Part shown: positions 637 to 39,971 of the stretch, piece by piece
Layout of the letters: every line of letters begins with the position of its first letter
How positions within the stretch are numbered: position 1 is the first letter of the stretch
IMG/VR virus record: IMGVR_UViG_3300026116_000002
Coordinates: 1-64,000 of that record
Direction: 5' to 3' (one strand)
DNA: 64,000 bases
From: a virus
Translations under genes and position numbers: made by a program
The notes under the pieces: model-generated
What the model was told of the DNA's origin: nothing
The model's input: the letters and a program-made list of their open reading frames with translations, nothing else
Database searches by the model: none

Positions 637-882
637 GTGTTCCTCTCCGAGATTGACACCGGACGCAGCGCACTACCACAGCGCCCGGTGCTTTTCTGTC
701 CACCTGTCCATATCCTCGCTATGCGGTCACAATGATTGCCAGCCGCGTGGCTTTCGTGTACACTTCAGCGCTTCTGTCAAAGCTTGACGGGATAGTCCTC
801 ACCTCCCATGGGCTGTGATGGTCAACGCCTGTAGCATAGTCTCCTCCGATCTTCCGTGGAAGTGTATTTTGAGCGTAACCAA
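637..882. other. Gene-poor stretch with hairpin and possible tiny leftward ORF
   Basis: No convincing gene. A hairpin with arms CACCGG/CCGGTG lies near 656-690, followed by TTTT on the + strand. On the - strand one frame is open from about 916 down to a TAG at 719-721 and reads like protein (ends EVYTKATRLAIIVTA) but has no good start; GTG at 800-802 is the only candidate. In another frame a strong GGAGGAG site precedes a 12-codon ORF (MLQALTITAHGR). Either could be a leader peptide; I would not call them genes. Confidence 0.3.
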
Positions 883-955
883 TGGACCGTGCTGGAGTCG
901 AACCAACATCTCCCCGTTATAGTGTAGGGGGCTTTACCAATTAAGCTACCGGTCC
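883..955 (-). tRNA. tRNA-like gene with irregular anticodon arm
   Basis: On the - strand a cloverleaf can be drawn: acceptor GGACCG with CGGTCC, D stem GCTT/AAGC with GG in the loop, T arm GTTGG-TTCGACT-CCAGC, discriminator A. CCA is not encoded. The anticodon arm is wrong: CCCC and GGGG pair, but the next pairs are mismatched and there is no U at position 33 in the canonical register. That register would put CTA at 34-36 (amber), while a 9-11 nt loop is also possible. It may be degenerate. Amino-acid identity cannot be assigned. Confidence 0.6.
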
Positions 956-1033
956 AAGTCTGACATGGGGCTGATCTCCACCCTAGCCCCGCCCTCCTCT
1001 CTTAGTTCGCTGTACTGTGTTTGATGAATAGCC

Positions 1034-2773: not shown

Positions 2774-3281
2774 TGGCCTCCCACCCCGGCGTCACCGCGT
2801 ACACCCCGCGCTTAGACCACGTCAGGTTCCCGCGATCAATCAAGATCGCAGTTAACTGCCTGACCGTCACAGTAGTGAACGGGTAAATGAACTCATCGGG
2901 GCGCTCCTCTTTAAGCTGCTGCACCTTGCTCGCAAGCCACTTCGTAGAGACGAAGCCGTAGTACCCAGTGTTAAGCTCCGACAGAAACGTTTCATCGTTG
3001 GCGACAGCCCAAGCGAGCGAACTCTTCTCCCTTGCCGGGTTGCCGACGTAGCGCAGGATGTTGCCGCCGTACTCCCGGCGCTCCCTCGTCTTCACCTCGA
3101 CCGGGATATCCCACGGCGCGACGACCTCTTCGTCCCACTCGAAATGTGCCTGATACTCCTTGTTAATCAGGTACGCGACCACCTGGTTGACGCGCACTCC
3201 CTTGAACCGCGCGACCTCTTGCAGTCGGTGCAGCACGTCATCGGGCACGCTCCACCGGACGCAGCGTTTTGTGTTACTCAT
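2751..3281 (-). CDS. Protein with N-terminal ribbon-helix-helix-like segment
   Basis: 176 residues. RCVRWSVPDDVLHRLQEVARFKGVRVNQVVAYLINKEYQ (residues ~6-45) has the beta-strand, helix, helix pattern of ribbon-helix-helix DNA-binding proteins. The C-terminal part (VTVRQLTAILIDRGNLTWSKRGVYAVTPGW) resembles a winged-helix-like fold. The ATG overlaps the stop of the TOPRIM gene at 3281. DNA binding is inferred; no target known. Confidence 0.6.
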   Translation of the reverse strand: MSNTKRCVRWSVPDDVLHRLQEVARFKGVRVNQVVAYLINKEYQAHFEWDEEVVAPWDIPVEVKTRERREYGGNILRYVGNPAREKSSLAWAVANDETFLSELNTGYYGFVSTKWLASKVQQLKEERPDEFIYPFTTVTVRQLTAILIDRGNLTWSKRGVYAVTPGWEANDGTVQS

Positions 3282-4291
3282 CAGTACCCCTCTTCATCCT
3301 GCTCAAGCTTTGCAGCAACATTCTTGATCTTCTCTCGCGCCTCATCCTGCCGTGTTAGCGCTTCGTCATACAAGTTATCGTCCCTGTACTGCTCCACTAG
3401 CTTTTCAACTAAGCCCGCAAGCACTGACGGCTCAAGGGCGTCAAGTTCCCACGACTCATTGCCGAACTTGCGAATGTAGCTTTCGGCTCGGCTATCAGTA
3501 ATCTTTGCTGGGTTAGGCGGCGGATTGTACTCGTCGATCTGGTCCATGTTGAGCGCGGCACGCTCCACTTTAAACTCAAGCCCATCGTACGCGTCGTTAA
3601 GATAGCGCGTGAAATACCGAGCGTTCAACGTCTCCTTAGCTTTGCGGTAGAACTCCGGGTCTTCATCTTCGTCTTTGGTCGGTGCCCAAAATCGGTAACC
3701 GGCAAAGATTTTCAGCCGGTCTTCAACGTCGCGGCTCATGTCAATACCGCTTGGGTCGTGGTCTCCAAGGTAAATCACGCAGATATTGCGGCCAGTGTCG
3801 AGCTTCGACTTCATCCGCTTCCCGGCTTCGTGCATGGCCGAGCTTGATGAGTAACCCTTGTTCGCCGTAAACGGGATGTCGAGCCTGCGACACACAGGCT
3901 CAAGCACCCCCTCAAGAGCCTGCTTTTCGACCATAACTTCAATGTGCCACGGTTGATCTTGCCAAGTGTCGAAGCGGAACTGATTGGCGCAAGCGTCGAC
4001 GATACTTGCGGGACTATCCCAATGGCTATTCTGCACGCATTCTCGCCCGCGATCCACGATCATCGACCAATCAACTAAGCCAGCCAGCCGCGCGTCCGAT
4101 AAGATTGAGCCTATACGCTTGTAGGATTTCTCTTCGTTCGTGATGATGTTACGACTAACAAGCTGATAGTAAAGCTGTCTCAGGGACAGGTCATATCCTT
4201 GGGACTGATAATTGCGCAAGATGCGGTTCATCGTCGTAACAAGCTCGCGCGACTCGCTCGACAATTGCGTTGGCTCAAAAAACTCTCTCAA
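3281..4291 (-). CDS. TOPRIM-domain protein related to topoisomerase VI A/Spo11
   Basis: 336 residues with a TTG start at 4289-4291 behind AGAGGAGTAACCAG. The N-terminal half (LSLRQLYYQLVSRNII, YKRIGSILSDARLAGLVDWSMI) resembles the winged-helix region of Topo VI A-like proteins. The TOPRIM motif follows: VEKQALEGVL with the conserved glutamate near residue ~120, then YLGDHDPSGIDMSRDV with the DxD metal site. Such stand-alone proteins occur in phages and plasmids; they may cut or nick DNA, but activity is unproven. No catalytic tyrosine is certain. Confidence 0.7.
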   Translation of the reverse strand: MREFFEPTQLSSESRELVTTMNRILRNYQSQGYDLSLRQLYYQLVSRNIITNEEKSYKRIGSILSDARLAGLVDWSMIVDRGRECVQNSHWDSPASIVDACANQFRFDTWQDQPWHIEVMVEKQALEGVLEPVCRRLDIPFTANKGYSSSSAMHEAGKRMKSKLDTGRNICVIYLGDHDPSGIDMSRDVEDRLKIFAGYRFWAPTKDEDEDPEFYRKAKETLNARYFTRYLNDAYDGLEFKVERAALNMDQIDEYNPPPNPAKITDSRAESYIRKFGNESWELDALEPSVLAGLVEKLVEQYRDDNLYDEALTRQDEAREKIKNVAAKLEQDEEGY

Positions 4292-13759: not shown

Positions 13760-13788
13760 TTGACATAGCGTTGAGACTGTGATATACT
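13760..13788 (+). promoter_or_regulatory. Rightward sigma70 promoter
   Basis: TTGACA (13760-13765), 17-bp spacer, TATACT (13783-13788). It starts just after the small terminase stop and drives the small membrane protein gene. Confidence 0.85.
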
Positions 13789-14027: not shown

Positions 14028-14227
14028 GGCGCGTTTGTGCGTAGGCTGAAATAGGGGTCCCAATTCTCGGATGGGGCGGGTAGATTGCACGGTGGAGTAA
14101 GTACCTGCCCCCGAGAGAAGGGGGTGGGGTGTTGTGGGTGTGCGTCTCCCACCATCCCCGACTACCCACTCAAACCCAACTCTAAAACTTAACCCAACCC
14201 CAACCAAAACCCACCTACCCAAAACCC

Positions 14228-14264
14228 CAAAAATTTTTTAAAAAAATTTTGCCCCGAAAATAAA
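14228..14264 (+). repeat. 37-bp AT element upstream of a promoter, copy 1
   Basis: CAAAAATTTTT-N-AAAAAA...TTTT, then a C-rich bit and GAAAATAAA. It is close to identical to 15908-15944, also just upstream of a promoter. It may act as an UP element or bent-DNA site. Confidence 0.7.
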
Positions 14265-14265
14265 T

Positions 14266-14310
14266 TACTATACATTTCAACTTGACACAACCTGCCCACA
14301 GCGATATACT
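14266..14310 (+). promoter_or_regulatory. Rightward sigma70 promoter with conserved upstream box
   Basis: TTGACA (14282-14287), 17-bp spacer, TATACT (14305-14310). The box TACTATACATTT (14266-14277) four bases before the -35 is repeated exactly at 18178-18189 before another consensus promoter. Confidence 0.85.
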
Positions 14311-14345
14311 AATCCCAAGACGAAAACACTACGGAGGATTAGACA

Positions 14346-15688: not shown

Positions 15689-15907
15689 GGAGGTGATGTC
15701 ACATATACCCGTACCATGGACAATTCATTCCGGGCAACGTATAGATCAGCGGTCGGCCTCTACAGTGGGCCGCTGCTCTCAAGCCTGACCCGTGGCCCCT
15801 AACGCCTAACACCAAACACCAAAACTCTTACCAGCCCAAACTCTTAGTAAGGCTTCAGCCCCGAACTCTAACTACACCGCCAACTTTTCATAATTTGCAG
15901 TAACCCG

Positions 15908-15944
15908 CAAAAATTTTTCAAAAAATTTTCCGCCCGAAACTAAA
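15908..15944 (+). repeat. 37-bp AT element upstream of a promoter, copy 2
   Basis: Near-identical to 14228-14264 over 37 bp, and again immediately upstream of a promoter. Confidence 0.7.
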
Positions 15945-15950
15945 ATGTGA

Positions 15951-15988
15951 TTACCAGTAGTGTCTACCTGTGGTATACTTACTACTGG
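15951..15988 (+). promoter_or_regulatory. Rightward promoter framed by an inverted repeat
   Basis: TTACCA (15951-15956), 17-bp spacer, TATACT (15974-15979) with an extended -10 (TGG before it). Arms CCAGTAGT (15954-15961) and ACTACTGG (15981-15988) are a perfect 8-bp inverted repeat enclosing the core, so a regulator could bind here, or the 5' end may fold. Confidence 0.65.
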
Positions 15989-15998
15989 AGGATCACGC

Positions 15999-17000: not shown

Positions 17001-17399
17001 ATGTCCAGCAGCAACATGGCCGGGACAATTATCAAGGAAATCCGCACCAGCCGTAGCGAGTCTCAAGCCGATCTCGCCAAGGTGGTCGGCACGACACCGA
17101 ACACGGTATCGCGGTGGGAAACCGGGCAGTACAAGCCATCTGTAGAAGACCTTTGGAAGATATCCGAGCACTACAAGGTCTCGGTAGCGAGGTTCTTCCC
17201 GAGGAACACGGCCCCACGCGGCCTGAACCTCGTCAGCAATGTGCACATCTGCGATCAGTGCCTTGACGGCGCGGGTGGCGAGTGCCATACCCCCGGATGC
17301 ATCCTGTTCCTCAATCGCGGGCCTGACATTCCGATCAGGGACTCAGTGCTCTTAACGAGCGGGACGATCGAGCCGTTAGGCAGCATGAGTGAGGAGTGA
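17001..17399 (+). CDS. XRE-family regulator with cysteine-rich tail
   Basis: 132 residues. Residues ~8-62, IIKEIRTSRSESQADLAKVV then GTTPNTVSRWETGQYKPSVE and DLWKISEHYKVSVARFF, form a clear XRE helix-turn-helix. The C-terminal half has CDQCLDGAGGECHTPGC then ILFLNRGPDIPIRDS, a small cysteine/histidine module found in other phage proteins. A plausible candidate for the repressor that binds the CTATTGA palindromes, by inference. Immediately follows the ASCH gene. Confidence 0.8.
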   Translation: MSSSNMAGTIIKEIRTSRSESQADLAKVVGTTPNTVSRWETGQYKPSVEDLWKISEHYKVSVARFFPRNTAPRGLNLVSNVHICDQCLDGAGGECHTPGCILFLNRGPDIPIRDSVLLTSGTIEPLGSMSEE

Positions 17400-17402
17400 A
17401 CA

Positions 17403-17597
17403 ATGGCAAGGCGAAAGTCACTGAGCACACTACTGACTGAGAAGTGTGCCGAGCCGGTTGATGGCACTGTCTTAGTCGAGGAGTGGCCATTCACGGTGTC
17501 AAATCACTTCCATGACATTAGCCAGTGCTACATGGTGGAGTTGTCATGGGCGCTTAAAGTCATGAGGCTTGTCGAGGCACAACCTAAAACTCAGTAA
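17403..17597 (+). CDS. Hypothetical small protein
   Basis: 64 residues, MARRKSLSTLLTEKCAEPVD ... HDISQCYMVELSWALKVMRL. Three bases after the XRE gene; GAGTGAGGAGTGAACA precedes the ATG. No family recognised. Confidence 0.55.
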   Translation: MARRKSLSTLLTEKCAEPVDGTVLVEEWPFTVSNHFHDISQCYMVELSWALKVMRLVEAQPKTQ

Positions 17598-17603
17598 CAG
17601 CTA

Positions 17604-17890
17604 GCGCACCCCCAAGGCCGCACACCCGGAGAGGGGTGCAGCGATCCCGAGCAGCAGTACCTATTGGGGAATTCTGATCGGATAGTGAGCAGGCCGAGGA
17701 GCTATCCTTGGGGTTGCGCGAAAGGCTGTCCGAGGACGCCGTAGCGGACAGGTAACCGGGCATTTAGTATCAGGCATTCAAAGTCCTGCACCCGAGACAA
17801 AAGACCAAACAGGCGTGATATCGTAGAGACGGAAATCTAGGTCTAGTTCATGGAACTTCATCCGGTGGACGCCGGTACGGTCTAGTACAC
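17604..17890 (+). ncRNA. Structured non-coding RNA candidate (multi-branched)
   Basis: A 305-base gap with no believable ORF contains strong nested pairing. GCGCACCCCCAAGG (17604-17617) pairs with CCTTGGGGTTGCGC (17706-17719), 13 of 14 bases. Inside are hairpins GCACACCC/GGGGTGC (17620-17639), TCCC/GGGGA (~17645-17670) and GGATAG/CTATCC (17680-17707), a four-way-junction-like layout. Downstream, CTGTCCG/CGGACAG (17726-17751) is another hairpin. No own promoter is obvious; it would be processed from the operon RNA. It does not match the tmRNA, RNase P, or group I cores I could look for. The 3' limit is approximate. Confidence 0.55.
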
Positions 17891-17902
17891 TAAGGAGGCA
17901 CT

Positions 17903-18124
17903 ATGAGCACTGAGCTAAAACAAGAAGTTCAGCCGATAAACTGGTACTTATACTCAGGGTATCGAGCTTCACTCATTGAAACAAGGCGAGACGCAGAGTT
18001 AACAAAGCTTGACAAGTACCTAAGCGCCCGAGTCTCTTGGGCCGATGATCCAGAGGTAGAACGCGCCGAACTTGAGCGCGTAATGAACAACCCGGACCTT
18101 CTCCGTAGGATATACGGGGATTAG
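17903..18124 (+). CDS. Hypothetical helical protein
   Basis: 73 residues after AAGGAGGCACT. MSTELKQEVQPINWYLYSGY then RRDAELTKLDKYLSARVSWA and an acidic helix. It lies between the structured RNA and a terminator, so it ends the operon. No family recognised. Confidence 0.6.
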   Translation: MSTELKQEVQPINWYLYSGYRASLIETRRDAELTKLDKYLSARVSWADDPEVERAELERVMNNPDLLRRIYGD

Positions 18125-18137
18125 TACCACCGGCATC

Positions 18138-18170
18138 AAGCCGCCCGCACCACAGGGCGGCTTTTGTTTA
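18138..18170 (+). terminator. Rho-independent terminator
   Basis: AAGCCGCCC (18138-18146) pairs with GGGCGGCTT (18155-18163) around an 8-base loop, followed by TTGTTT. Confidence 0.85.
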
Positions 18171-18177
18171 CACGAAA

Positions 18178-18222
18178 TACTATACATTTTAGCTTGACAT
18201 GATCACTCGGCAGTGCTATAAT
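18178..18222 (+). promoter_or_regulatory. Rightward consensus sigma70 promoter
   Basis: TTGACA (18194-18199), 17-bp spacer, TATAAT (18217-18222), both perfect; box TACTATACATTT at 18178-18189 as at 14266. Confidence 0.9.
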
Positions 18223-19418: not shown

Positions 19419-19423
19419 AACAC

Positions 19424-19771
19424 ATGGCATTTATAGACCTATCAGGGCGAACGTTTGGGCAATTCAAAGTGGTCAAGCGCGTCATGAAGCCGGAAGGCAT
19501 CAAGAGCCGTTCGGCGCGGTGGCTGTGCCGCTGCAACGCATGCGGCAAGTCCAAGTCGATCTCGGCTGATTGCCTGACGCGCGGGCACTTTGAATGCTCG
19601 TGTGCTCGTACGAAAAGAGGGCGATCAAGAGACCCGCTGCGGCATCCTAGCGTCTCGTCGCAGCTTTATCACCAGCGCATCGCAAAGCTCGGATGGAGCG
19701 AGCAGGACGCGCTCACGTTGCCTTGTGGGCAGAGGCGCGGGCGGAAACCGAAAGGAGTTAACCATGAGTGA
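19424..19771 (+). CDS. HNH-homing-endonuclease relative lacking the HNH domain
   Basis: 115 residues. The N-terminal ~60 residues, DLSGRTFGQFKVVKR, WLCRCNACGKSKSISADCL and HFECSC, match the zinc-binding N-terminal domain of the HNH protein at 39141-39971. The C-terminal piece LYHQRIAKLGWSEQDALTLP resembles that protein's C-terminal IFKLGWTVEEAVNTPP module. The catalytic middle is missing. It may be a degenerate homing endonuclease or a DNA-binding protein made from one. Confidence 0.65.
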   Translation: MAFIDLSGRTFGQFKVVKRVMKPEGIKSRSARWLCRCNACGKSKSISADCLTRGHFECSCARTKRGRSRDPLRHPSVSSQLYHQRIAKLGWSEQDALTLPCGQRRGRKPKGVNHE

Positions 19772-21322: not shown

Positions 21323-24106
21323 ATGGTGTACGTACCGAGAAAAACCGCAGCGCCCCCTCCGATAGTGCTCGATGACGAACTCATAAGTCAGATCAAGACG
21401 ATTGCGACTGGCTACATCCAGACCGAAGCAACCCCCGAGGCGGCGTACGCCAAACTCCTCAAAACGTTCCACATGCTGCCTGAGAAGGTGATTATCGAGG
21501 CGCTGACGCCGAAGGTACTCCCTCCGATTCCCGCGAGGCCAATACTCCATGAAGGCCAGATCGATATCAAGTCTCATGCCAAACGCTTCAACGTTATCAA
21601 CTGCGGCAGGCGCTTCGGTAAAGATATCCTTTGTATCGACCTCGCGATTGACATATTGGAGAAGGGCGGCAAGTGCGGCTGGTATCAGCCAACGTACAAG
21701 TCTCTCATGGAGGTATGGCGTGCCTGTAAGCGCATTCTCGCCCCGATCATCCCAAAGAATGGCATCAATGTCCTCGATAAGCGCATCGAGGTAACCACTG
21801 GGGGCTTGATAGAGTTTTGGTCTCTTGACGGTGACCCGGAAGCCAGCCGAGGCCGAGACTACGACCGAGTAATCATCAACGAGGCGGCTAAGGCGCGTCA
21901 GCTTCAGACGGCATGGGACTTGGCGATCAGGCCAACACTCATGGACCGCCGTGGTGACGCGTGGTTCCCGTCGACCCCGAGAGGCCGTGATTACTACTTC
22001 GATCTATTCCAGCGCGGCCAGGTTGGCAGTCTTGATTATGACCCGAACTGGGTGTCGTGGCAGAAACCGACGCATGACAACCCTCACATCCCCAAGGAAG
22101 AATTGGTCGACGCCGAGAAATCTATGCCGGTCACCGTCTACCGTCAGGAAATCTTGGCTGAGTTTCTGGACGTTGCGGGGCGGTTCTTCGACGAGTGGGA
22201 ACCTGCGCAGTGGGTCACGTTCATCGACGCAAGCGGCAAGATAAGTCAGCGCGAAGAGGCTTGGCATGTCGTGGAGCCATTCCCGATCCCGGACCACTGG
22301 CAGGTGTGGGCATCGGTCGACCCAGGCACAAGCAAGCACGCTAGAACTCACGCGGTGTTGTTCTTTGCCTCTGATCCAGAGGGCGGGGTTGTAATATTTG
22401 ACGAAATCTATGAAAAGGGGAAGCAGTCAGCAGAGCAAGCAGAGTTATTGCTACTGAAACTTGAGACGTATAAAAGGGCTTGCCCTGTTGACCCTGCTCG
22501 CCGTAATGGACTATGGCGGCTTAATACAGGGCCAATCCCGTGCGATTACGCCAACTTCTTTCCCCCGCCTATCAGTCATACAAGTAATGCGGTGTCGTTG
22601 GCAAGTGCGGAGCGAATCGGTAAATGGCCCGTTGAATATTATCATGAGCGTGGTATTCGAGCCGTAAGAGCCGTAAAAGATCGCATTGCTGGTTGGCGAG
22701 AAATGAAACAATGGCTTCATGACACTCTCCCTATTAAGCCAGATTCTGCCCGACTTTCTAAGGTTGACGGAGAAGACAGTCGCCCTAAGCTTCGCGTCTT
22801 CAGGGGAAGGTGCGCAAATTTAATTCGCACGATACCCCTGATGATACGTGACGAGCGAAAACCCGAGGATATTGAAGAGGACACTCTTGGGGTTGGTGAT
22901 AACGCCGGTCACCTGGAGCAGCATCTCGTTGACTGCTGCTTTATTGCCGGGACATTAATATCAACTAGCTTGGGAGACCGCCCGATCGAGGATATTAAAT
23001 ACGGTGATATGGTGTGGACACGTAAAGGTTTGAGACGTGTAATCGCTTGCGGCCCTACCACACCGCGCGTCGTAGGTAAATTGATGATCGAAAGCGCGGA
23101 AATAGTAGGTACGCTGGACCACCCTGTATGGGTTGACGGGCAGGGGTTTACTGCCTTGGGTGCGATACGGTATAATGACAAGGTCGTTACCGTTAACCCC
23201 AAGGAGTTAGGCAAATGCCAGAGGTACAAGTCTTCGAAGGTGTCACATACCGCCGCTACCCGGAGTCAAAGCAAGAGTGCCATCGCAGGTATTTCTTCAG
23301 TAATAAGGACAGTTTGCATCGGGCTATATGGCGATCGGCTAATGGGGAAATCCCTAAAGGATATCATGTCCACCATAAAGACGAAGACTACTCGAATAAC
23401 ACGCTGGATAACCTTGAATGCCTGTCGCCCGACGAACACCGAAAGCGACATCCGTACAAGGGCAGTGGTAACATTATTTGGTGCAATTTCTGCGGTAAAG
23501 AGTTCAGCGCCAATACTCGGAATGACCGAGATCGATTTTGCTCTAACAGGTGCAAGTCAGCTTGGCGCAGGGCTAGTGGGGCTGACAATGAGCAACGCAT
23601 ATGCTCATGCGGGAAAGCCTTTGTTGTCAACCGCTACGAGGACACTGTTCACTGCTCTCGGCAGTGCGCTAGGCCGGGTGGCTACGAACGTCCTAAAATC
23701 GCTACGACTTGCAGGCAATGCTGGAAGGTTTTTGTTGCACGCAGTCAGAAGGCCATTTACTGCTCTACGGCCTGTCGTAAGCGATGGGATAGAAATCATA
23801 GGGGTAAGGACAGTCTACAACCTAACGGTTGAGGGTTGCCCCGAATACTTTGCAAATGGGGTCCTGGTCCATAATTGCAGGTATGGCCTCATGTCTCGGC
23901 CCGGAGTATCACCGGATGAGCCGGAAGCCGAGATGACGCCGCAGGAAGTGTACGTAAGCACGAACCAGGCGAGGGATGACGCGGCCCTCGACTATCGCAA
24001 CGCCCGCATGGGCCTCAAGCGCGATGGCTTCCACGAAGACGGCTCTGTGAAGTGGGTTGCATCAAAGCGTATCAAGCCCAAGTCAAGGCGACCGATGGGC
24101 GTCTAA
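21323..24106 (+). CDS. terL: Terminase large subunit, interrupted by an intein
   Basis: 927 residues as encoded; about 614 after removal of the intein (residues 539-851). NCGRRFGKD (~93-101) is the Walker A variant of large terminases and RVIINEAAK (~182-190) the Walker B with catalytic glutamate. The nuclease half begins near ASVDPGTSKH (~328). After splicing, ...HLVDC joins CRYGLMSRP, the DxxRYGLMSRP region near the end of the nuclease domain. The enzyme pumps and cuts DNA into the procapsid through the portal. Sequence flanking the intein (about 22380-22930) uses more A/T-ending codons than the ends of the gene, as if converted with the intein. No strong ribosome site is seen. Confidence 0.85.
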   Translation: MVYVPRKTAAPPPIVLDDELISQIKTIATGYIQTEATPEAAYAKLLKTFHMLPEKVIIEALTPKVLPPIPARPILHEGQIDIKSHAKRFNVINCGRRFGKDILCIDLAIDILEKGGKCGWYQPTYKSLMEVWRACKRILAPIIPKNGINVLDKRIEVTTGGLIEFWSLDGDPEASRGRDYDRVIINEAAKARQLQTAWDLAIRPTLMDRRGDAWFPSTPRGRDYYFDLFQRGQVGSLDYDPNWVSWQKPTHDNPHIPKEELVDAEKSMPVTVYRQEILAEFLDVAGRFFDEWEPAQWVTFIDASGKISQREEAWHVVEPFPIPDHWQVWASVDPGTSKHARTHAVLFFASDPEGGVVIFDEIYEKGKQSAEQAELLLLKLETYKRACPVDPARRNGLWRLNTGPIPCDYANFFPPPISHTSNAVSLASAERIGKWPVEYYHERGIRAVRAVKDRIAGWREMKQWLHDTLPIKPDSARLSKVDGEDSRPKLRVFRGRCANLIRTIPLMIRDERKPEDIEEDTLGVGDNAGHLEQHLVDCCFIAGTLISTSLGDRPIEDIKYGDMVWTRKGLRRVIACGPTTPRVVGKLMIESAEIVGTLDHPVWVDGQGFTALGAIRYNDKVVTVNPKELGKCQRYKSSKVSHTAATRSQSKSAIAGISSVIRTVCIGLYGDRLMGKSLKDIMSTIKTKTTRITRWITLNACRPTNTESDIRTRAVVTLFGAISAVKSSAPILGMTEIDFALTGASQLGAGLVGLTMSNAYAHAGKPLLSTATRTLFTALGSALGRVATNVLKSLRLAGNAGRFLLHAVRRPFTALRPVVSDGIEIIGVRTVYNLTVEGCPEYFANGVLVHNCRYGLMSRPGVSPDEPEAEMTPQEVYVSTNQARDDAALDYRNARMGLKRDGFHEDGSVKWVASKRIKPKSRRPMGV
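23171..23206 (+). promoter_or_regulatory. Internal -10 box and Shine-Dalgarno of the nested HNH gene
   Basis: Inside the intein coding sequence a perfect TATAAT (23171-23176) is followed by AAGGAG (23201-23206), eight bases before the HNH ATG at 23215. No good -35 is visible at 17 bp. Confidence 0.6.
23215..23832 (+). CDS. HNH homing endonuclease nested out of frame in the intein
   Basis: 205 residues, +2 frame relative to the terminase. Residues ~47-75, GYHVHHKDEDYSNNTLDNLE then CLSPDEHRKRH, are an HNH nuclease of the type found in phage homing endonucleases (HH...N...N...H). Three cysteine clusters follow: CNFCGKEF...FCSNRC, CSCGKAF...HCSRQC, CRQCWKVF...YCSTAC, likely zinc fingers for DNA binding. 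It has its own AAGGAG ribosome site. It begins directly after the intein N-terminal splicing domain and ends inside block F, so the two proteins share ~618 bases in two frames, both open. It presumably cuts inteinless terminase genes and spreads the intein. Confidence 0.85.
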   Translation: MPEVQVFEGVTYRRYPESKQECHRRYFFSNKDSLHRAIWRSANGEIPKGYHVHHKDEDYSNNTLDNLECLSPDEHRKRHPYKGSGNIIWCNFCGKEFSANTRNDRDRFCSNRCKSAWRRASGADNEQRICSCGKAFVVNRYEDTVHCSRQCARPGGYERPKIATTCRQCWKVFVARSQKAIYCSTACRKRWDRNHRGKDSLQPNG

Positions 24107-26020: not shown

Positions 26021-28366
26021 ATGCCTAGTGTGATCGAAAACGTAAAGAACGGGATCAAGTCAGCCTTTAGCCCAAAAGTACTGCCGTCGCTGACTGAAGG
26101 CACGATGAAGCTTGCCGATCCCGACAATGTATCGTCGATGATCGGCTATGGCGACCTGGATGAGCAGGAGCAGGCAAAGCTCCGTGGGTACCTCGCCGGG
26201 ACCGAGGCTGGCATCAGCTTCAAAGACATGGCCGACGCGCTGATGGACCTTGGCGAAGAGTGGTACATGGAGTCGCGCCAGGGACGCTGGAAGCACCACG
26301 AGGACTTCTTCAGTGGGCTTGCGGCGTTCGCCGGTGAGTACAACCTGTATTGGAACCAGGAAGCTAACAGTGGCAACGGCATGATGCAGGGCTTTCCGAA
26401 CGCGGAAGGCAACACGGACTTCGATGAGAAGTTCGCGCAGAAGTACGAGAACGTTTTTCGTGTCATGATCGAGCGGGCGCAGGCCCGCATCACGGCGGCT
26501 TACCCTGACGCGTGGGCCGCTCCGCTCAACGACACTGACAAGGACAAGCTCGCCGCGCAGGTGCTCCGCTCGATAAATGGGCACTGTTCCCGCGAGACAA
26601 ACCGTGAGCAGTTGATGGAGGATATATGCCTCTACATGCTCATTACAACGACAACGTTCATCGAAGTTGGGTGGAACCCGAAGGCGTACGCGGATTTAGG
26701 GATACCGCAGCCTGATGGCAGTGTGGAGTACCACCGGGAACAGATCGGAGATGTTGTCAATCGCCTCGTTATGGCGATCGACGCTTACCCGGACCCGAAT
26801 GCCGCGCTGAATGGCGGCGACATTCATGGCGGGGCGTACTTTATCAAGCGCCACCTGATGAATGTACAGGATGTCTCGGAGAAGTGGGGCAGGCCGGTTA
26901 CACCCACCTCGCCGGGATCGACGTTCGGCTTCTTGCAGGCAAGGATGGAGTTGATCGCGGGGGATCACTCCCGCATATTGTCCAAGATCAAGAACTCGAC
27001 CGAGATCACTGAGGTTTGGAACAAACCCTCGAAGCAGTATCCCAGGGGTCGATTTTGGGTTTATAGCGCTGACCGCACGCTGCTTTGGGCCGGTGAGTGG
27101 CCGTACGAGAAGAACGATGAGTACCCGTTCGTCGAGTTCGGCTTCAAGAAGAATGCAGGCTCGGTGTGGGCGCTCAATATGGGGCGTGATCTACTGCCGA
27201 CGCAGCGCACACTGAACCGTCTCGCGACCTACCTTGCGGCCCGCCTTGAGTGGGACAGACCAACGATTTTAGCGCCGAGCAACTGCGATATTGCGCCGGA
27301 TGATTTCCTCAATCCGACGCTCTACAAGGTAATAGCTTTTGAAGGCCCGAGCACCGGCGGGTCGATGCCGATCTATCAGCAGCCGCCGCAGCCGGGGGAG
27401 TTCTACTTCAAGTACGAGCAGTCGTTGCTTGCGAAGATGGAGATGCTGGCGGGCGTTCGTGACCTCAATGGCGACAACGCACAGCCGATCAACAGTGGCA
27501 TCGAGTACGGCCTGCGGCTCAAGACCGACAAGGAGCGCCTAGCGCCTGCGATCAAAATGATGGGGCGGGGCAGGGCCAAGCTGTATGAATGGGACGGCGC
27601 ACTCTATCGACAGTTCGGAGCTTCGTTCCCGAGATTGCTTGGGATTGACGACATGGCGATCCCCGGCAAAGACCTTGAGGGGGCAGCGCCAACCGCCGCC
27701 ACCAAGCTCGTGGACTTGCAGGCACTTAAAGACGGCAACACTCGCGTGTTCCTCGAAGCTGGATCGGGCGAAGCGAGACTGCCGGAAGCACAGGAAGCAC
27801 AGCTACAGGAAGTCACGAAACTGCTCACTCAGGCGATGGCGCAGCCGGGAGGGGCAGCTATTGTCGAATGGTACCTCGGGCAGTCTCAGGCAATCCGCTC
27901 CGACCAAGAGACCGACCGCCTGGTAGTTGGTGTCAAGCAGCTTGTAGCCGAGCAGGCCGAGCGCGAGGCGCAGACTGCCATGAATGTCCAGCAAGCCAAG
28001 GGCGGGCAGTCTCAGCAGGCGCAGCAGGCCAAGCAGCAGGCAGACCTACAGGCGATGCAACTCAAGCACGAGCAGGATCAGGCCAAGGCCGCGATCGACG
28101 TGCATTCTCAGGCGCTTGTCGAGCAGTTCCGTGGACAGACGGACATGGCAGTGAACTCGCAGAAGTTCCAGCAGGCCATGATGCTCCTGCACACGAAGAA
28201 CGCCGTTCCGTCCGTCACTCTCACTGGTACCCTCGACCCCGCAGGCGAGTCGAGCGCACAGGAGAAGGCGGGTCTCAGCGCTGGCGACATGGACACGCTC
28301 AAGAAAATGCTTATCAAGCCTGCCCCGACGAAAGGAAGCTCTAATGGCTCGTCAGCCACGAAATAA
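26021..28366 (+). CDS. Portal protein
   Basis: 781 residues. Position after the terminase, size, and sequence (RVMIERAQARITAAYPDAWA, NRLATYLAARLEWDRPTILA, GVRDLNGDNAQPINSGIEYG) fit the dodecameric portal of short-tailed phages. The C-terminal ~130 residues are glutamine/alanine-rich coiled coil (QQAKGGQSQQAQQAKQQAD), compatible with a long barrel. It forms the DNA channel at one capsid vertex and docks the terminase and connectors. No ribosome site precedes the ATG. The last 23 bases overlap the next gene. Confidence 0.75.
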   Translation: MPSVIENVKNGIKSAFSPKVLPSLTEGTMKLADPDNVSSMIGYGDLDEQEQAKLRGYLAGTEAGISFKDMADALMDLGEEWYMESRQGRWKHHEDFFSGLAAFAGEYNLYWNQEANSGNGMMQGFPNAEGNTDFDEKFAQKYENVFRVMIERAQARITAAYPDAWAAPLNDTDKDKLAAQVLRSINGHCSRETNREQLMEDICLYMLITTTTFIEVGWNPKAYADLGIPQPDGSVEYHREQIGDVVNRLVMAIDAYPDPNAALNGGDIHGGAYFIKRHLMNVQDVSEKWGRPVTPTSPGSTFGFLQARMELIAGDHSRILSKIKNSTEITEVWNKPSKQYPRGRFWVYSADRTLLWAGEWPYEKNDEYPFVEFGFKKNAGSVWALNMGRDLLPTQRTLNRLATYLAARLEWDRPTILAPSNCDIAPDDFLNPTLYKVIAFEGPSTGGSMPIYQQPPQPGEFYFKYEQSLLAKMEMLAGVRDLNGDNAQPINSGIEYGLRLKTDKERLAPAIKMMGRGRAKLYEWDGALYRQFGASFPRLLGIDDMAIPGKDLEGAAPTAATKLVDLQALKDGNTRVFLEAGSGEARLPEAQEAQLQEVTKLLTQAMAQPGGAAIVEWYLGQSQAIRSDQETDRLVVGVKQLVAEQAEREAQTAMNVQQAKGGQSQQAQQAKQQADLQAMQLKHEQDQAKAAIDVHSQALVEQFRGQTDMAVNSQKFQQAMMLLHTKNAVPSVTLTGTLDPAGESSAQEKAGLSAGDMDTLKKMLIKPAPTKGSSNGSSATK

Positions 28367-30365: not shown

Positions 30366-31463
30366 ATGGCAAGCACTTCAACATTGACCGGGCCATTGTC
30401 ATTTACGCAGTACATGCAGCGTATCAATGAGCCGCGCGTTACTACGTTCTGGGAAAGCTTCATCAAGCAGAAGTCGATCCCCACATACCTGTCGATCCAG
30501 ACCGAGGGGGCGCTCATTAAGCGCGGTCGCCGTGTCATCGACAAGCTCCCGAAGGTCACGGCCCTGCCGATTGGCGCGGAGCCGACCAATCCGTTCACGA
30601 CCACCAGTCAGCCGTTCCAAGAGACGCTGATGCTGAACCGTGACAACAACGACATCGACCGGAACTTCCGCAAGGATAAGAACTACATCGACAACGATCC
30701 GGTCATGATCGACATCAACCTGTACGTGCAAGCGAGAAATATGTTCGTCAACAACTATTTCTTCAACAACAGCACGTACCAGGGACCGACCTCCGACCCG
30801 AACGGCTTCATCGGTGTTCGCTATCGAGCGCTCGACGCCATCAACGGGAACACTGGCAACTACGGTGTTAACTCGGGATGCGTCTTTGCGGCGACCGGCA
30901 AGATCAACCAGTCGAATTGGTCCAGCACCAACGCGATTGCGATTGAGCGCGACTTCGACCGCATGTTCCAGCACATGGATGCCGAGAACGGCGAAGGACT
31001 TGTCGCCTTCTGCTCGCCTCAGTTCATGTGGCTGTTCGACGCGATCCTGAAGTCGGCCAGCACCTCGGGCGGTCTCAAGATCACGGTCGACGCGTTCGAC
31101 CGCAAAATCCGCAAGTACGGCGAGTGCGAGCTTGTTTCCTGTGGACTGCTCCCCCCGCTCGACGGCGGCTTGCAGACCGCGCCGAACCTGTCGAGCGCTC
31201 AGGACATAAATGGGTGGCAGGCTGGTGACAACCTGTTCGTGCAGAACGGTAGCAACTACTACACCTCGGTCGTCTTCATCAGCAAGAACCCGAAGAAGTT
31301 CACTTGCTGGCAGCAGGAAGACCCGTGGATGGAGCGAGAGCGCATCACCGGTACGCGCAAGATGCGGACCATGCTCGACCAGACCCTTGGTATCTTCATG
31401 GAAGACACAAGGGGAATGGGTATGCTTTACGGCATCCAGATCGACGGCCCGACTGCCGACTAA
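30366..31463 (+). CDS. Major capsid protein
   Basis: 365 residues. Position after the scaffold, the size, and the sequence style (NDIDRNFRKDKNYIDNDPVM, RNMFVNNYFFNNS, QEDPWMERERITGTRKMRTM, DQTLGIFMEDTRGMGMLYGI) fit an HK97-fold coat protein. The middle is rich in Asn/Gly/Ser, as in surface loops. GGGAAGGTTTATCAT precedes the ATG. Confidence 0.8.
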   Translation: MASTSTLTGPLSFTQYMQRINEPRVTTFWESFIKQKSIPTYLSIQTEGALIKRGRRVIDKLPKVTALPIGAEPTNPFTTTSQPFQETLMLNRDNNDIDRNFRKDKNYIDNDPVMIDINLYVQARNMFVNNYFFNNSTYQGPTSDPNGFIGVRYRALDAINGNTGNYGVNSGCVFAATGKINQSNWSSTNAIAIERDFDRMFQHMDAENGEGLVAFCSPQFMWLFDAILKSASTSGGLKITVDAFDRKIRKYGECELVSCGLLPPLDGGLQTAPNLSSAQDINGWQAGDNLFVQNGSNYYTSVVFISKNPKKFTCWQQEDPWMERERITGTRKMRTMLDQTLGIFMEDTRGMGMLYGIQIDGPTAD

Positions 31464-38408: not shown

Positions 38409-39166
38409 TGGGGCAAACCGGCCAGGACATATTCAACCAAGTAGCCACCTTTCTCAGCTTAACCGCGAAGTCTCTGCCTGTTGCCGCGCAGATGTCCGAT
38501 GGCACAGGAGAGAGCACCACCCCGGTCATTGATGGAACGACACAGGTGTGTCTATGGATCACGGAAGGCATGGAGCGCCTTGCTCGGTTGTGTGTGCCGA
38601 TTACCGACACTGCGATCTCCACAGCCACGACTGCGGGGCCAAACGGCATTGTCGGCCCGTTCACGAATATCCAGAGTACATCGTCGAGAACGCTATACGT
38701 CCCGACGTTCGTCAGTATAGGGTCCAATCTGCTGGCGCAGACTAACCTTGGCTTCCTAAATAATATGATCTGGTTTCCTCCTACGCCAGACGGAGACCCG
38801 ATAGCTTGGACTGACACCACGACTTATATCGACCTGTCATACTTTACTACTCAGCCGACGTTCAATATCCAGGGCTATTTCTTGCCAATACCCGTTAACT
38901 CTTTGACTGATCCGATTGACCCGTTTTTTGACGATAACGTAAGACTGGCCACTGCGTACTACGTAGCATGGAGAGTGTGTGCGAAAAATCGAGATAACGC
39001 AGTCTTGCAAGCTCGGGAAATGCCATGCTTAATAGAGTTTGCAAAGTTAGTTAAAGAGACCTATGACCGGTTAGTTTTAACTGATAGCACCCTGTCTCCA
39101 ATTTGGCCCCCTGTTGAAATGGATTCAATCATTCAGTTAACTAAACAATCGGTTCCGAGGACCTGA
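38408..39166 (+). CDS. Second connector-like protein, 3' end recoded by an HNH insertion
   Basis: 252 residues, same overall plan as its neighbour (IDLSYFTTQPTFNIQGYFLP, RLATAYYVAWRVCAKNRDNA). It ends QLTKQSVPRT-stop. Beyond the antisense HNH gene, 40016-40048 encodes QLMKQSVPRT-stop in different codons; this looks like the original end of the gene. The last ~200 bases of the present gene are AT-rich and codon-shifted, as expected if brought in with the HNH element. Likely tail-tube or stopper role. Confidence 0.6.
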   Translation: MGQTGQDIFNQVATFLSLTAKSLPVAAQMSDGTGESTTPVIDGTTQVCLWITEGMERLARLCVPITDTAISTATTAGPNGIVGPFTNIQSTSSRTLYVPTFVSIGSNLLAQTNLGFLNNMIWFPPTPDGDPIAWTDTTTYIDLSYFTTQPTFNIQGYFLPIPVNSLTDPIDPFFDDNVRLATAYYVAWRVCAKNRDNAVLQAREMPCLIEFAKLVKETYDRLVLTDSTLSPIWPPVEMDSIIQLTKQSVPRT

Positions 39167-39971
39167 CCCGTCTCAGAGGAGGTGTATTAACTGCTTCTTC
39201 CACAGTCCATCCGAGCTTAAATATACGATTCCACATCATACCAGCAGGGAGATTAGTATCAGCTTCTAGTGTTACCAATGGGACTCGCTTGCCTTTATAT
39301 GATACAATAACCGTAGACCTCTTATTTGCATCTTGTTCAACACGCGTTGCCCATTTAACATTACCGGAAGCATAGTTGCCGTCATTGTCGATACGCTCTA
39401 TACTGTGGCGCTTTGTTGGCCTAACTCCGACCTCGGCAAAAAAGTCGGCAAACGATGTAAACTCGCACTTAATACCGCGCCCCCCATAATACTTAAATGC
39501 AGGTGTCTTAGGATCGCGACATCGCTGTTTTAAGGATTGAAATACATTGTATTCTGCTGGGTGTAATGTCCGAAGCGGAGAAATCCTAGCTTTATTAAAC
39601 TCAAGGAGCACGCAACCGCAAGACTGGCTATGTCCGCGCCTTAGATTTTTGCCACAAACGGATTTTTCTTTACCGCAGCTGCATCGGCACAGCCAATACT
39701 TTTGATTGCCACGTTTCTCGTCAAAAGCAATAACTGTCCATCGTGAAAACTGAAGACCTAACATGTCTGTTGTGTTGACTGTATGTAATTGCTTCGCAAG
39801 ACAACCGCATGACTTTGTGCTGCCGTTTCTTAAATACGGCAACGCTGCCACAACAGTAGAACCACACGAGCAGTTGCAAATCCACCATGATTTAGCACGT
39901 TCGTTATGGGAATATTTTATAGCTGTAAGGTTACCGTAGGTTCGGCCGGTAATATCTATTTTATTTCTCAT
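39141..39971 (-). CDS. HNH/AP2-type homing endonuclease
   Basis: 276 residues on the opposite strand to all neighbours and AT-rich. Two N-terminal zinc modules, WICNCSCGSTVV...SCGC and LCRCSCGKEKS...SCGC, then KQRCRDPKTPAFKYYGGRGI and GVRPTKRHSIERIDNDGNYA, SGNVKWAT, the typical phage HNH-like core (H..ER.D..G.Y..GN..W). The C terminus IFKLGWTVEEAV is a NUMOD-like repeat. It should cut related phages lacking it. The stop overlaps 26 bases of the + strand connector gene. Start ATG 39969-39971 lacks a ribosome site. Confidence 0.85.
   Translation of the reverse strand: MRNKIDITGRTYGNLTAIKYSHNERAKSWWICNCSCGSTVVAALPYLRNGSTKSCGCLAKQLHTVNTTDMLGLQFSRWTVIAFDEKRGNQKYWLCRCSCGKEKSVCGKNLRRGHSQSCGCVLLEFNKARISPLRTLHPAEYNVFQSLKQRCRDPKTPAFKYYGGRGIKCEFTSFADFFAEVGVRPTKRHSIERIDNDGNYASGNVKWATRVEQDANKRSTVIVSYKGKRVPLVTLEADTNLPAGMMWNRIFKLGWTVEEAVNTPPLRRVRSSEPIV

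Follow-up and report, generated by a model that had tools for sequence, protein, structure and literature searches.

The window analysed here covers the first 64,000 bases of a virus record 74,887 bases long and contains a 305-nt gap (17598-17902) flanked by the ORFs 17403-17597 and 17903-18124 (Table 1). Gap calling in the window gave 16 gaps of 120 nt or more (6338 nt together), of which this is one. Further along the same stretch, the terminase large subunit is encoded at 21323-24106 and a portal-like protein at 26021-28366. The protein of 30366-31463, which we take from where it lies to be the major capsid protein, had no family match, and searches of phages, viral contigs and genome contigs found no relative. 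On the + strand upstream of the gap, promoter-like sites scoring 11/12 are present at 13760-13788 and 14282-14310, and weaker sites reach up to 15979, those nearest to the gap ending at 15946 and 15979, such that no promoter-like site on this strand occurs within 1.6 kb upstream of the stem domain (17604-17720). Given these upstream sites, the terminator-like hairpin that closes the region and the 12/12 promoter that follows it at 18194, we infer that the gap is probably a spacer just ahead of a transcription unit's final gene. Placement in an early operon, as proposed in a preliminary description of this locus, is plausible from position because the gap lies upstream of the terminase gene and downstream of strong sigma70-like promoters.

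Table 1. Features in and around the gap, with their coordinates in the window.
Feature	Coordinates	Strand	Basis
Upstream 64-aa ORF	17403-17597	+	Family matches: none known
Untranslated spacer, 305 nt	17598-17902	+	Codon scores, gap calling
Stem 5′ arm, 14 bases	17604-17617	+	Arm search, ensemble probabilities
Internal hairpin 1	17620-17639	+	Minimum-energy fold
Internal hairpin 2, interrupted stem	17647-17681	+	Minimum-energy fold
Internal hairpin 3, competing with inner arm pairs	17696-17709	+	Minimum-energy fold
Stem 3′ arm, 14 bases	17706-17719	+	Arm search
7-bp hairpin, 12-nt loop	17726-17751 (17726-17732 / 17745-17751)	+	Repeat present in sequence
Ribosome-binding site AAGGAGG serving ORF 17903-18124	17893-17899	+	Sequence
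Downstream 73-aa ORF	17903-18124	+	Family matches: none known
Intrinsic-terminator-like hairpin and T-rich tail, likely transcription unit end	18138-18163	+	
Sigma70-like promoter, 12/12, for next unit	18194-18222	+	

The gap had been described as free of ORFs, and our analysis bears this out: it holds only mechanically called short ORFs, with stop-free pieces of at most 59 codons, and positive codon scores do not span it in any of the six frames. A gap of gene size with stop-free pieces of this length might represent a decayed gene or some other remnant that is presently functionless, but we regard this as improbable, as the codon signal is absent and a PHROG scan of eight frame pieces left seven without a match at E ≤ 1 and gave the eighth a single match at E 0.52. 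DNA comparisons likewise argue against a remnant: homologues of the gap were not found among phages, in searches from which records very near the window may have been excluded, and the one piece obtained from plasmids, 31 nt at E 0.3, falls within a gene for an ABC transporter. Two other gaps in the same region (14028-14345 and 15689-15998), each of about 310 nt, have similar C-rich and A-rich stretches followed by AAAATTTTT-type runs, and also carry promoter-like sites. When folded and judged by eye, these two gaps and a further one (19419-19763) showed no design in common with the gap studied here, and the latter has no match longer than 16 bases to the rest of the window.

The stem itself is real sequence. 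Its 14-base arms form Watson-Crick pairs at 13 of 14 positions and enclose an 88-nt inner region in which the minimum-energy fold places three hairpins, just as the preliminary description had them. In that fold the outer nine arm pairs are formed, while the inner part gives way to a GGCC helix (17616-17619 / 17692-17695) and the third hairpin (17696-17709). Pair probabilities taken from the ensemble of 17400-18125 follow the same division: the outer five arm pairs reach 0.90-0.97, the next four 0.87 and the inner four 0.24-0.60. The further 7-bp hairpin that had been noted downstream is present as a repeat, but its pair probability in context is only 0.08-0.09 and 143 of 1000 shuffled sequences were at least as stable.

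As a generic criterion for a structured RNA we used a folding energy below that of dinucleotide-shuffled sequence. The preliminary description had held that pairing of this extent, over 17604-17890, is not expected by chance; on the + strand, however, its folding energy is -98.4 kcal/mol where the shuffles average -93.7 (z -0.92), and 32 of 200 of them equal or exceed its stability; on the - strand it is less distinctive still (z -0.22; 78 of 200). The entire gap behaves in the same way (173 of 400 shuffles at least as stable), as does its later part, 17757-17890 (393 of 1000). What survives of the claim is the domain 17604-17720, for which 15 of 1000 shuffles were at least as stable, a borderline value that rises to 40 of 1000 when the segment is extended to 17755. 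A test corrected for the selection of this segment gave a comparable result, in that two of 150 shuffled gaps reached -52.1 kcal/mol in their best 117-nt sub-window. The ‘multi-branched structured RNA’ originally proposed is thus reduced to one domain of borderline stability, and a multi-domain structure lacks support from folding energy. Energy like that of shuffled sequence is also one half of the outcome which the preliminary description had named as refuting it, and over the coordinates given there this half was observed. The window was further scanned coarsely in 120-nt segments at a step of 100, 639 in all and each set against 40 shuffles. The one at 17601 scored z -2.71 on the + strand and -2.72 on the - strand; 17 segments scored better on the + strand and one tied with it.

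The frequency of such arms leads to a similar assessment. The window has four arms in which 13 or all 14 positions pair over a distance of up to 200 nt, compared with an average of 2.35 over 20 window shuffles, so that more than two are to be expected in any case in 64 kb. Within the gap they are scarcer: only 4 of 2000 shuffles of 17598-17902 contained such an arm, and chance yields the arm, and likewise the best sub-window (2/150), only at roughly the 1% level. Among the 16 gaps that measure 120 nt or more, only 17598-17902 has such an arm with a span of 60-200, and when all 16 were reshuffled together at least one appeared in eight of 200 sets. From the shuffles, the scan and the arm counts, among spacers the long stem is mildly unusual, in the window as a whole it is ordinary, and folding after 17720 is at background level. 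A lone good inverted repeat in a long spacer may, by eye, pass for a multi-domain RNA.

That the structure belongs to no recognised RNA class, as had been stated, still holds, and matches of Rfam models to the gap do not rise above chance. At gathering score the only match in the whole window is a tRNA (883-955, - strand), outside the gap. At E ≤ 10, the region 17500-18200 gave three matches, all below gathering score, the best of which (E 0.36) falls outside the gap; the only one that overlaps it is to the lncRNA model UCA1 (10.9 bits, E 6.6). Intron families, including the group I core, are absent from these three matches up to E 10, which weighs against a small self-splicing intron joining both short ORFs. 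Such an intron would suit the size of the gap, its position between two very short ORFs and the presence of other HNH and intein elements in this phage, but both ORFs have separate starts and stops, a dedicated ribosome-binding site precedes the downstream one, and we give the idea hardly any credence. A trans-acting phage small RNA excised from the operon transcript is very improbable as well: a non-coding gap with one compact domain could in principle release one, but neither promoter-like nor terminator-like sites were found in the gap interior on either strand, no Rfam family matches and conservation was not found.

Pattern searches and neighbouring genes were also used to look for relatives. 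Exact gap patterns, that of the arm included, had no matches in viral contigs, and the arm pattern had eight in genome contigs. These eight were dropped as chance or coding matches, as on reading the alignment they showed no similarity to the remaining gap; among the four of them that were listed, two lie antisense to what we take to be biotin synthase and two in what is presumably an O-acetylhomoserine sulfhydrylase-like gene, and two further arm-pattern matches, L011 and L012, align with the two at biotin synthase. Relatives of neighbouring proteins came one gene at a time: 18253-18729 in L002, 16551-17000 in L003, the terminase in L004 and L005, and the C-terminal part of 17001-17399 in L006 and L007, which also match an overlapping antisense frame. 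These six viral loci and one phage record (L016) each have one gene in common with the window, L016 having the nested HNH frame described below in addition, and none of the seven conserves neighbouring gene order with the window. Compared with L002-L007, the gap DNA gave a best match of only E 0.22.

Because the rest of the gap folds like random sequence and no relatives were found in which the structure might be conserved, the gap can probably be regarded as an untranslated spacer of the ordinary intercistronic kind, with one borderline, GC-rich, imperfect stem domain. Phage polycistronic mRNAs carry untranslated intercistronic spacers with stem-loops, and the gap resembles these in lying between small ORFs, in having a ribosome-binding site downstream and in containing one local stem. 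It differs from them in its length, as 305 nt of non-coding sequence is long for a compact phage operon and counts against the spacer reading, and in that its stem closes around 88 nt of inner sequence instead of a short loop. We envisage a polycistronic phage mRNA that would end at the terminator 18138-18163, with the gap as a spacer within it if the flanking genes are co-transcribed, and with the strong ribosome-binding site of 17903-18124 itself serving for its translation. Everything beyond the stem 17604-17720, the 7-bp hairpin included, would then be background folding, and the gap would have no dedicated RNA function. If the stem has any role, the likeliest would be a passive one in cis, as local structure past the stop codon of 17403-17597 that would slow RNases or ribosomes; the GC-rich stem is possibly such a passive cis element.

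The main rival to an ordinary spacer is a functional cis element, made up of 17604-17720 and the hairpin, that controls the stability, processing or translation of 17903-18124. The borderline stability of the first domain and its location ahead of a cistron that has a strong ribosome-binding site and is followed by a terminator speak for such an element, but we consider it unlikely on several grounds. The start site of 17903-18124 has a predicted mean unpaired probability of 0.38 with the gap and 0.49 in a short fragment, which is little difference, such that the ribosome-binding site does not appear from the model to be clearly sequestered by the gap. Further, about 170 nt of background-level folding separates the domain from the start codon, and homologues were not found in the searches run. 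A bolder version makes 17604-17755 a phage RNA domain that is restricted to this lineage, belongs to a class not yet described and acts in cis on its own operon (through stability, read-through or translation of 17903-18124). This seems quite improbable to us, and a lineage-specific functional RNA in the gap is at present unsupported. Were the domain conserved as an RNA, it would count as a new regulatory element of phages.

Two kinds of known phage RNA offer a comparison. GOLLD and ROOL are large, ornate structured non-coding RNAs linked to phages or prophages, and the gap is like them in being non-coding, in its phage context and in having had structure claimed for it. Unlike them, it is far shorter, folds at background energy and has no match to those families at E ≤ 10. 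The second comparison, with a put-like RNA that would act on RNA polymerase in cis and bring about read-through of the terminator at 18138, was considered since that terminator lies downstream. The HK022 put RNA antiterminates without protein factors, through the beta' zinc-binding domain. Put elements are about 70 nt long, with two stem-loops, near early promoters (PMC9378689); like the HK022 put RNA, the gap would place a cis RNA structure in a phage operon ahead of a terminator, and it does have a structured stretch and a further hairpin upstream of a terminator-like site. The domain here is instead 116 nt, branched and thousands of bases from strong promoters (the nearest 11/12 site being that at 14282), and thus unlike that description of put (PMC9378689) in size, form and position alike, so that we attach very little probability to this reading.

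Several other features of the window were observed in the course of this work. The terminase ORF (21323-24106, + strand) contains an intein-type Hint domain (Pfam Hint_2, amino acids 538-575, E 5.5e-7), and nested inside the terminase insert, in a different frame, is a 205-aa HNH endonuclease ORF (23215-23832, + strand) that matches HNH_3 (E 3.9e-15) and phrog_15471 (E 2.8e-30). The same layout occurs in the terminase ORF of a distant phage, Acinetobacter phage Highwayman (L016 1298-3589, nested ORF 2800-3447). Over 206 aligned positions the two HNH proteins share 34% identity (E 4e-30), and codon scores there are mixed in both frames. A 2025 paper describes HNH insertions that lie out of frame and lack splicing domains (PMC11855218); the terminase insert here has a Hint domain, and the combination of a Hint domain with an out-of-frame HNH gene merits separate study.

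Among the remaining observations, the tRNA gene at 882-956 (- strand) has a CTA anticodon, which would read UAG; ARAGORN calls it tRNA-Pyl and the Rfam tRNA model scores it at 42.9 bits, and a suppressor tRNA in a phage is a possible explanation. A repressor-like HTH protein carries a C-terminal Cys-rich motif, CDQC...CHTPGC (17255-17399, + strand), that two viral contigs (L006 and L007) also have, in other contexts. Lastly, a 276-aa ORF (39141-39971, - strand) without a Pfam match lies on the opposite strand inside the + strand structural gene block, and by eye it looks like a free-standing endonuclease-type insertion.
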